64,000 bases of DNA from Fibrobacter sp. UWB16 (GTDB lineage Bacteria > Fibrobacterota > Fibrobacteria > Fibrobacterales > Fibrobacteraceae): contig NZ_OCMS01000001.1 in the NCBI RefSeq assembly GCF_900215325.1, forward strand, positions 496,001-560,000. The letters run 5' to 3'. Below the pieces are notes generated by a model. The model worked only from the letters and a program-made list of their open reading frames with translations, was not told the origin of the DNA and searched no databases. Below, in pieces: positions 10,643 through 37,120 of this stretch. Each line of letters starts with the position of its first letter. Position 1 is the first letter of the stretch. A program made the translations under genes and the position numbers.

Positions 10643-10688
10643 TTGGTCATTGGTCATTGGTCATTGGTCAATGGTCATTAGTCATTAG
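10643..10688. repeat. short AT-rich direct repeats (GGTCATT units)
   Basis: Four to six degenerate tandem copies of TTGGTCA/ATTAGTCA directly after the TPMT-family gene. The same words recur at 48716-48780, and a related TTACTAGTTACTAG form fills 11339-11458. Confidence 0.7.
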
Positions 10689-26297: not shown

Positions 26298-26415
26298 ATG
26301 ATACTCCTCACATTTTAGTTATGCTGAACATAATATATGAGTGACAGATGAAAAAAGACCGACATTAAACAAATGTTTGTTGTTGAAAAAAACAACGACA
26401 ATAAGTTTACATTTG

Positions 26416-26620
26416 ACGACCGCTCGGCTCTTTTGAAATACAAGACTCCGTACTCGCCTCGCTCTCGCCTTCACGACCCGTCAACACGGGTCGCTTCGGG
26501 CTCACGGATACGACCGCTCGGCTCTCCTGAAATGCAAGACTCCGTACTCGCCTCGCTCTCGCAACCACTCCAGTTCAAAAGAACTGGGGCTTTGTTGCTC
26601 ACGGCACGACCGCTCGGCAT
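26416..26620. repeat. tandem repeat array with interchangeable hairpins
   Basis: Two full units of 94 and 96 bp plus the start of a third (unit starts at 26416, 26510 and 26606). The common part reads ACGACCGCTCGGCTC, then TGAAAT.CAAGACTCCG, then TACTCGCCTCGCTCTCGC. The variable middle carries a different hairpin in each unit: CGACCCGT-CAAC-ACGGGTCG in unit 1 and CCAGTTC-AAAA-GAACTGG in unit 2. It occupies most of the 407-bp gap between xynC and gyrA. Confidence 0.8.
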
Positions 26621-34679: not shown

Positions 34680-36536
34680 ATGCCGAAACTTCGTTCGCTC
34701 AAGACTATGGAAGGCCGTGAAATGGCCGGTGCACGTGCCCTTTGGCACGCAACAGGAACCAAGGTAGAAGACTTTGGTAAGCCCGTCATTTGCGTGGTGA
34801 ACAGCTACACCCAGTTTGTACCGGGTCATGTCCACCTCAAGGATGTCGGCCAGGTTGTCGCACGCGCGATCGAAGCTGCCGGCGGTGTCGCCAAGGAAAT
34901 GAACACCATCGCCGTGGACGACGGTATCGCCATGGGCCACGACGGCATGCTCTACAGCTTGCCCTCCCGCGACCTCATTGCAGACGCTACCGAATACATG
35001 GCTAACGCCCACCGCGCAGACGCCCTCGTTTGCATTTCTAACTGCGACAAGGTGACTCCGGGTATGCTCATGGCTGCAATGCGCCTCAACATTCCGGCAA
35101 TCTTCGTTTCCGGTGGTCCAATGGAAGCTGGTCACGTCACGACGAAGGACGGCAAGGACCGCGCTCTCGACTTGATCGACGCCATGATCGATTCTGCAGA
35201 CAACACCATCAGCGATGAAGAAGTTGCCGACATCGAAGCCAACGCTTGCCCGACTTGCGGTTCCTGCTCCGGCATGTTCACCGCAAACTCCATGAACTCC
35301 CTTACCGAAGCCCTCGGCCTTAGCCTCCCGGGCAACGGCACCATCGTTGCAACGCACGCCGAACGCAAGAAGCTCTTCGAAGCCGCCGGTAAGCGCATCG
35401 TGGAACTCTGCCACCAGTATTACGATTTGAACGACGAAAGCATCCTCCCGCGCAGCATCGCCACGAAGGACGCCTTCGAAAACGCCATGCGCCTCGATAT
35501 CGCCATGGGTGGTTCTTCTAACACCGTTCTCCACTTGCTCGCCGTCGCTCAGGAAGCTGGCGTGGACTTCACCATGAAGGACATCGACCGTCTCTCCCGC
35601 AACACGCCGTGCATCTGCAAGGTCGCTCCGACCGTCCACAACATCCACGTCGAAAACGTGAACCGTGCAGGCGGCATCATGGGCATCATCGGTGAACTCG
35701 ACCGCATGGGCCTCATCCACAAGAGCGCAAAGACCGTTCACGCCGCTACGATGGGCGACGCTCTCGAAGCAAACGACCTCAAGCGTAATCCGACTGCCGA
35801 AGCCAAGCAGCGCTATCTCGCAGGTCCGGGCCGCAAGTACAACATCGAAGCCTTCTCTCAGAACTTCATGTACCCGGATCACGACCTCGACCGCGCAAAC
35901 GGCGCTATCCGCGATGGCGAACACGCTTACACCAAGGACGGCGGCCTCGCTGTTCTTTACGGTAACCTCGCTATCGACGGCTGCATCGTGAAGACCGCAG
36001 GCGTTGACGAATCCATCTGGAAGTTCACTGGCCCGGCAATCGTGTTCGAAAGCCAGGAAGAAGCTGTGAACGGCATTCTCGGCAACAAGGTGAAGGCAGG
36101 CGACGTCGTCGTCATCCGTTACGAAGGCCCGAAGGGTGGTCCTGGCATGCAGGAAATGCTCTACCCGACCTCTTACCTCAAGAGCCGTCACCTCGGCAAG
36201 TCTTGCGCCCTCCTCACCGACGGTCGCTTCTCCGGTGGTACAAGCGGTCTCTCCATTGGCCACGCCTCTCCGGAAGCAGCCAACAAGGGTAACATCGGCC
36301 TCGTGCACACGGGTGACGTCATCGAAATCGATATCCCGAACCGCACCATCAACGTGGAACTCACCGACGAAGAACTCGCCGCACGCCGTCAGGAAATGGA
36401 ATCCCGTGGCGCCAAGGCATGGAAGCCGGAAAACCGCGACCGCGTCGTGTCCAAGGCACTCCAGGCATACGCTGCTATGGCCTCCTCTGCAGACAAGGGT
36501 GCCGTGCGCGACCTGTCTCTGATTGGCATTAAGTAA
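34680..36536 (+). CDS. ilvD: dihydroxy-acid dehydratase
   Basis: A 618-residue iron-sulfur dehydratase that converts 2,3-dihydroxy-3-methyl acids to 2-oxo acids in valine, isoleucine and pantothenate synthesis. Motifs: '[20 protein letters not shown]', '[18 protein letters not shown]', '[20 protein letters not shown]', and the C-terminal '[20 protein letters not shown]'. The cysteines are as in the standard enzyme and length is normal. AAAAAGGA lies six bases before ATG 34680; a palindromic operator candidate overlaps a -10 box upstream. No other ilv genes are adjacent. Its last 37 codons are repeated twice downstream in 230-bp units (36651 and 36881), each copy with only silent changes. Confidence 0.96.
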
Positions 36537-36650
36537 GCCATGCGTTAATGTTCATTCTGTGAGCTAGAGTCGCCGATATTAATCGGCGATGGAAGCGAGA
36601 GGCGGCGAGGTATCGCAATGTATATTGCAGTCGAGCCGCCGGTCGTCACA
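36421..36650 (+). repeat. ilvD-tail tandem unit 1 (contains the true ilvD 3' end)
   Basis: Unit of exactly 230 bp: the last 37 codons of ilvD and its stop, then about 114 bp of non-coding spacer. The spacer holds TCGCCGAT-ATTA-ATCGGCGA (perfect 8-bp hairpin), then GGCGGC...GCAAT-GTAT-ATTGC...GCCGCC (second hairpin), enclosed by CTGTGA...TCACAG, which could close a three-way junction. Confidence 0.9.
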
Positions 36651-36880
36651 GGAAGCCGGAAAATCGCGACCGTGTTGTTTCCAAGGCTCTGCAGGCATAC
36701 GCAGCAATGGCCTCCAGCGCAGACAAGGGTGCCGTGCGCGACCTGTCTCTGATTGGCATTAAGTAAGCCATGCGTTAATGTTCTTTCAGTGAGCTGGAGT
36801 CGCCGATATTAATCGGCGATGGAAGCGAGAGGCGGCGAGGTATCGCAATGTATATTGCAGTCGAGCCGCCGGTCGTCACA
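36651..36880 (+). repeat. ilvD-tail tandem unit 2
   Basis: 230 bp. The coding part differs from unit 1 in nine codons, all silent (for example TCT to AGC, GTC to GTT). The spacer differs from unit 1 at only three positions. It has no start codon or ribosome site for the ilvD fragment, so it is not expressed as a protein on its own. Confidence 0.9.
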
Positions 36881-37061
36881 GGAAGCCGGAAAACCGCGAC
36901 CGCGTTGTGTCCAAGGCTCTCCAGGCATACGCTGCTATGGCATCAAGTGCAGATAAAGGTGCTGTCAGAGACCTGTCTCTGATTGGCATTAAGTAAGCCA
37001 TGCGTTAATGTTCATTCTGTGAGCTGGAGTCGCCGATATTAATCGGCGATGGAAGCGAGAG
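36881..37061 (+). repeat. ilvD-tail tandem unit 3 (truncated spacer)
   Basis: The coding part differs from unit 1 in ten codons and from unit 2 in fourteen, all silent (for example CGC to AGA, GCC to GCA). The spacer matches through the first hairpin and GGAAGCGAGAG, then diverges; the second hairpin is missing. The array is followed by a terminator at 37085. Confidence 0.9.
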
Positions 37062-37084
37062 ATTCGCGCACTCATCAATCTTTG

Positions 37085-37120
37085 AAATTCCCGCCCCGAG
37101 AAAACGAGGCGGGAATTTTT
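37085..37120. terminator. terminator after the ilvD array, also serving the convergent gene
   Basis: AAATTCCCGCC / GGCGGGAATTT, an 11-bp stem with a 12-nt loop, then TTG. The stop of the minus-strand gene is 11 bp away. Confidence 0.8.

Follow-up and report, generated by a model that had tools for sequence, protein, structure and literature searches.

A folded, gene-free element that accompanies silently recoded gene ends at ilvD in Fibrobacter

The spacer between the repeated ends of ilvD in Fibrobacter sp. UWB16 represents one copy of a mobile, non-coding element, ∼95–105 nt in length, that is specific to Fibrobacter and its close relatives. The element has been undescribed so far; it is structured, and it is present in tens of copies per genome in the leading fibre-degrading genus of the rumen. 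At ilvD it is accompanied by foreign, silently different gene ends, and an essential metabolic gene is in this way open to repeated entry by a non-coding element of ∼100 nt. The stretch of DNA in which it was found (64,000 nucleotides, referred to here as the window) contains a complete ilvD gene for dihydroxy-acid dehydratase (34680–36536, plus strand, from the list of open reading frames; Pfam PF00920 and PF24877) and, at its 3′ end, an array with a period of 230 bp and 2.8 copies (36421–37061).

The three units of the array start at 36421, 36651 and 36881, with the third ending early at 37061, and each comprises the final 37 ilvD codons with their stop codon, encoding the same protein, followed by a spacer. 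An earlier sequence-only reading had reported that the tails differ in 9 (units 1/2), 10 (1/3) and 14 (2/3) codons, always synonymously, and that the spacers are nearly identical. Recomputation gave the same codon counts, corresponding to 11, 12 and 15 nucleotide differences; between spacers 1 and 2 there are 3 differences in 115 positions, and spacer 3, which is only 65 nt long, shows 1 and 2 differences from them. Because merely 26% of random point changes in the ilvD tail are silent, the tails must have evolved as functional gene ends. By itself, however, the silence of the differences is no sign of foreign origin: ∼75 ilvD genes of the family encode an almost unchanging C-terminus, such that any functional ilvD end would be expected to vary silently.

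On the plus strand, the array begins with tail 1, the functional end of ilvD (KPENRD...SLIGIK*, 36423–36536), followed by element copy 1 (CTGTGAGC...GTCACAG, 36557–36651; covariance model E 2.8e-19), displaced tail 2 (36652–36766), element copy 2 (36787–36881, by covariance model), and displaced tail 3 (36882–36996), the tails being delimited by comparison of the units. The 3′ half of tail 3 is of the AT-rich recoded type also found in genomes G022, G035, G083 and G025. Element copy 3 (37017–37061; E 2.6e-11) is cut after ...GGAAGCGAGAG, and the third spacer accordingly stops within the element at 37061. A GC-rich hairpin with a T run beyond the array (37082–37117, plus strand) is probably a terminator, judging from its sequence. 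The junction between units is the 3′ end of the spacer (...GTCACAG|GAAGCCGG, at 36651/36652 and 36881/36882). The block at 36510–36553 (plus strand) is identical in all three units, as had been claimed, but it is not the joining core it was taken for; it is the element-adjacent end of the donor-linked tail together with the linker GCCATGCGTTAATGTTC. All three window insertions lie at a single point, W^K, and the last 13 codons are the same in tails 1 and 2, which argues that local recombination had a part in this array (genome G000); the three units could reflect repeated insertion or unit-to-unit recombination. An assembly artefact, the concern raised with the sequence-only reading, is contradicted by the location of the array on a 1.3-Mb contig and by the independent assembly of the same architecture in ∼17 other genomes.

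When 111 genomes of the family were searched, the same spacer was detected behind ilvD in many Fibrobacter genomes, with related sequences elsewhere, and the suggestion that the spacer might be a mini-element was borne out by a multicopy family with a conserved fold. A covariance model, built like the consensus fold on an alignment of 21 instances and yielding copy counts that are lower bounds, identified at least 21 copies in this genome and at least 3–92 copies per genome in 31 near-complete genomes of the genus. At least one copy was found in 79 of the 80 Fibrobacter genomes searched, a few copies in two neighboring genera, and none in the other genera sampled; many of the genomes compared are MAGs. 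No Rfam family was matched by the element at gathering or permissive thresholds, and neither viral contigs (two exact hairpin patterns) nor phage and plasmid collections (blastn) contained a match to the element or a wider vehicle for it. Nothing on the element in Fibrobacter was found in the literature.

The fold is strongly conserved. Among 125 distinct sequences, 98.3% of cells are paired in the consensus fold as opposed to 24–38% in slid controls, both-sided changes are seen in 13 of its 14 pairs, and doubly changed cells number 294 versus 69.5 in shuffles. Conservation of tandem G·A mismatches in the second arm (GCGAGC/GCGAGC) indicates that the plus strand is the one that folds. With 1617 Watson-Crick, 25 G·U and 12 A·C pairing cells, an RNA and a single-stranded DNA fold both fit and are not told apart. 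Copy 1 of the window is predicted to form a three-way junction with CTGTGA/TCACAG as its closing stem, with energies of −42.5 kcal/mol as RNA and −23.7 kcal/mol as DNA (z −4.2 for both). On the reading preferred here, the element would work as a folded single strand.

Elsewhere in the window, a tandem pair of copies lies downstream of gyrA on the gyrA strand (minus), the first at 26504–26605 (E 1.2e-8) and the second at 26410–26508 (E 2.4e-16), with a short 3′-end fragment (ATGCCGAGCGGTC) between the gyrA terminator and the first copy. At another tandem locus (L115, G054:C21 13154–14502), two of three copies have an extra insertion (GACCTTTGGACACTTGCGCTTTAGCGCTTAGTGTACATGGCGACCTTTAGGTGG) bearing its own hairpin.

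Comparison of the ilvD 3′ region across Fibrobacter revealed the same order in ∼18 species: a complete ilvD, its stop codon, 2–26 nt, the element, and a second ilvD tail that begins exactly at the element 3′ end, with neither an integrase nor cargo between the tails. The start point of this second tail is W^K in four genomes (G000, G035, G092 and G072), V^V in G086, G^A in nine genomes, G025 among them, and G^VK in G069 and G084; G083 has the element behind the ilvD stop codon and lacks a second tail. Insertions are thus found at four positions inside the end of ilvD and at one after the stop. Each of these five kinds of site has units that combine the linker GCCATGCGTTAATGTTC with the element, and the 3′ end of the element is intact in every case. 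Loss of second tails by random deletion is unlikely, since the element end would not stay intact every time. The 115-nt inserts contain no integrase or open reading frame, and no larger island was present at ilvD among the loci read.

The sequence-only reading had also held that every integrating element came with a replacement gene end, and here the comparison agreed with it. Within one genome, primary and displaced tails differ on average at 7.4 of their final 13 codons, a divergence like that seen between species (7.0), and 151 of the 163 codon differences between primary and displaced tails are silent. Displaced tails are somewhat nearer to those of the closest element-free relatives (6.35 versus 7.57 codons; Wilcoxon p = 0.04), although this signal is weak and G035 goes the opposite way. 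Spacer 2 of the window is identical to that of G035 over 115/115 nt despite only 92.5% identity of the upstream ilvD sequence, demonstrating that a unit moved between species. In five genomes (G025, G035, G069, G084 and G083) the recoded sequence extends upstream of the insertion point, and four others (G022, G085, G024 and G088) have recoded patches with no element. In G022 the tail is recoded and the downstream DNA is native. These element-free patches look like scars of later loss via recombination between tails. Mosaic synonymous patches of this kind in ilvD, which element insertions explain, would mislead phylogenies.

The ilvD-type layout was also observed at other genes. In this genome, rplT is followed by a terminator, two elements, a displaced rplT tail and a second terminator, and trpS of G055 is arranged in the same manner. 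The insertion footprint rests on three pairs of empty and occupied sites, none of them at ilvD: GACCACG-TGAT-GGCC versus CTGTGAGCC...CATAG for PFOR, CAGG-GCAA-GGTC versus CTGTGAGCC...CATAG for frdB, and a trpS pair (CTAG) that is ambiguous as to target duplication. Approximately 4–5 bp of target are replaced, with duplication absent at PFOR and frdB and none clear overall. The two ends of the element behave differently, as a 5′-truncated copy (a 3′-end fragment of 12–60 nt) comes first in 27 of 88 arrays and a 5′ fragment comes last in only 2. The stop codon of a convergent gene lies near the element 3′ end in 43 of 94 distinct arrays, within 1–6 nt in 35 of these, and in non-ilvD arrays this contact is far commoner than intergenic placement alone would produce. 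At such loci (L114, L144, L170 and L174, for example), the element 3′ end supplies or abuts the convergent stop codon (CTAATAAGACCG). No displaced tails were found at antisense copies at the protein level, the single match (L009) being an ilvD array read backwards. The boundaries at PFOR and frdB (GTGAGC...CAG|G) resemble those of an intron; this reading was rejected because the copies sit in displaced, 5′-truncated gene fragments and the intact genes are located elsewhere.

From the fixed 3′ junction, the open or truncated 5′ side, the lost target sequence, and the recoding upstream of the insertion point, we infer a copying step, a homology step and the order of events. A mobile element of ∼100 nt may be joined at its fixed 3′ end and completed by homology on its 5′ side, a reading that we consider evenly balanced between right and wrong. 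The element 3′ end (..AG|) would form the exact junction of a new copy with its target, with loss of ∼4–5 bp of target at sites whose empty counterpart is known, and the 5′ side, which has no fixed end, would be either truncated or completed by homology. Where copying continued beyond the donor element into the gene preceding it, the copied strand could undergo homologous recombination with the same gene of the recipient. An insertion at ilvD would then bring in the donor tail, stop codon and element, keeping the gene whole and pushing the resident tail downstream. The window units would represent three arrivals at W^K that were reshuffled by recombination among copies, with the newest leftmost and the last element having lost its second half. 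Several points count against this model: the upstream recoding could stem from earlier insertions, the antisense copies lying 1–6 nt from a convergent stop codon (35/94 arrays) are unaccounted for, the footprint is fixed by three pairs of sites at genes other than ilvD, and the window array has a single insertion point and signs of local recombination. More tentatively, we propose that a gene-free nucleic-acid element might spread between species by a new form of one-ended, homology-completed insertion in which the folded 3′ end sets the junction, and that by carrying a silently recoded host gene end it might act as a natural recoded-rescue element, entering essential genes without harm. Repeated entry into ilvD is understandable if every newcomer provides the gene with a foreign end that differs only silently, making the element a natural counterpart of recoded-rescue designs.

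As for the mobilizer, our leading guess is target-primed copying of RNA or single-stranded DNA by a factor supplied in trans. SINE-like and other target-primed retroelements, as well as the retrohoming of DGRs, display a fixed 3′ end, 5′ truncation, a homology-completed 5′ side and a small target deletion. By analogy, the Fibrobacter case appears to work like a one-ended, 3′-anchored element. Unlike these systems, however, most carrier genomes have no reverse transcriptase: RVT_1 was detected in 9 of 31 genomes and is absent from this one and 21 others, several of them with at least 58–66 copies. Copying by a resident enzyme, as in group II, DGR or retron systems, is therefore not supported. 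Y1 transposases are likewise absent from this genome and 17 others of the 31, G061 and G054 among them, and these again include genomes rich in copies. Both enzymes were consequently rejected as resident movers, being absent or uncorrelated with copy number. The element shares with REP/BIME sequences mobilized by RAYT (Y1) an arrangement as structured intergenic tandem repeats and, in some copies, a GTAG/GGAG-like tetranucleotide before the hairpin; it differs from them in the lack of Y1 in 18/31 genomes, in its three-way junction of ∼100 nt, and in its exact contact with gene ends. MITE-like terminal inverted repeats with target duplication were not found either, the inverted ends being 6 bp and 4–5 bp of target being replaced with no duplication (PFOR, frdB). 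The many empty and occupied sites provide a clean system in which to find the mobilizing enzyme.

The sequence-only reading had attributed the array to repeated site-specific integration. Its foreign, functional gene ends stand, but its fixed core and its integrase or cargo do not, as insertion points vary and the insert contains neither. Remnants of classical integrative elements (prophages or islands) that used ilvD as attachment site, brought a replacement end, and later lost cargo and integrase are accordingly an unlikely source of the array. There are precedents: insertion of the prophage e14 into icd of E. coli left a 165-bp duplication with 12 changes, mostly silent (PMC11148124), and an attP can bear a replacement gene end (PMC10111431). 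Several-kb islands in Fibrobacter also displace the 3′ parts of PFOR and frdB. As with e14, ilvD has an insertion in the end of a housekeeping gene, a frame-restoring and mostly silent replacement end, and a displaced end on the far side (PMC11148124). In contrast to e14, a prophage with an integrase and one fixed site, the ilvD insert is gene-free, ∼115 nt long, and found at varying points; since both the internal integrase and the single attachment core are missing, we do not file it with e14-type islands. The recA island of Vibrio cholerae, which carries a divergent replacement copy of its target gene, is large, excises as a circle and uses one target site (PMC4405046). All of these integrase-carrying islands share the logic seen at ilvD, whereas the Fibrobacter element has no genes, variable insertion points, and a structured family of at least 3–92 copies at many other genes; nor was a larger ilvD island encountered among the loci read.

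Equally improbable in our estimation is the integration of small circles, each made of a gene tail and a folded site, by a tyrosine recombinase, possibly host XerC/XerD, that would recognize the folded strand in the manner known from integron attC or CTXϕ attP sites. The strand-specific fold with its conserved tandem G·A mismatches, the short inverted ends (CTRTGA/TCAYAG), and the absence of target duplication would all fit, and tyrosine recombinases (PF00589) are encoded in 31/31 genomes at 2–11 per genome, a count that does not separate IntI. Only the two top-scoring ones are universal, and from score and universality they are presumably XerC and XerD; G057 and G059, with at least 42 and at least 31 element copies, have just these two. 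Like attC, the element is an imperfect hairpin of ∼100 nt that would act as a folded strand and occurs in arrays of units. In contrast to attC, no IntI could be linked to it, and gene-tail replacement is foreign to integrons. The GTTRRRY core of attC is absent from the ilvD junctions, which read CACAG|G or CATAG|GG, and no dif-like site was demonstrated; the loop of the ilvD-type copies does contain a resemblance to dif (ATGTATATT), which was dropped because most copies do not have it. One-sided 5′ truncation and recoding beyond the insertion point are also unexpected of precise integration. Finally, homologous recombination alone, acting on one old insertion through unequal crossing-over and the uptake of foreign ilvD DNA by transformation, around a hairpin that is a passive 3′ UTR structure, would suit the mosaic tails of this genome and the G022-like scars of between-tail recombination, yet it is very doubtful given that displaced tails start at four places (with one more insertion after the stop) exactly at the element 3′ end and that the element is clearly mobile elsewhere, even inside displaced gene fragments.

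Several further observations were made along the way. The islands at PFOR and frdB (L160, L165, L172, L166, L167, L325 and L336–L338, in G059, G027, G094, G062, G075 and G061) span several kb, carry toxin-antitoxin genes or lipoprotein-like gene arrays, and follow the same gene-end replacement logic on a larger scale. At their end lies a different conserved block (GCGTTAGGGATAGTGACCCC...GGGAACGCCCAAGA), which was found in 31/31 genomes of the genus searched. G055 has eleven tyrosine recombinase genes compared with 2–6 in the other genus genomes. The window also contains a 7-bp tandem repeat, TTGGTCA, in six copies at 10643–10686.
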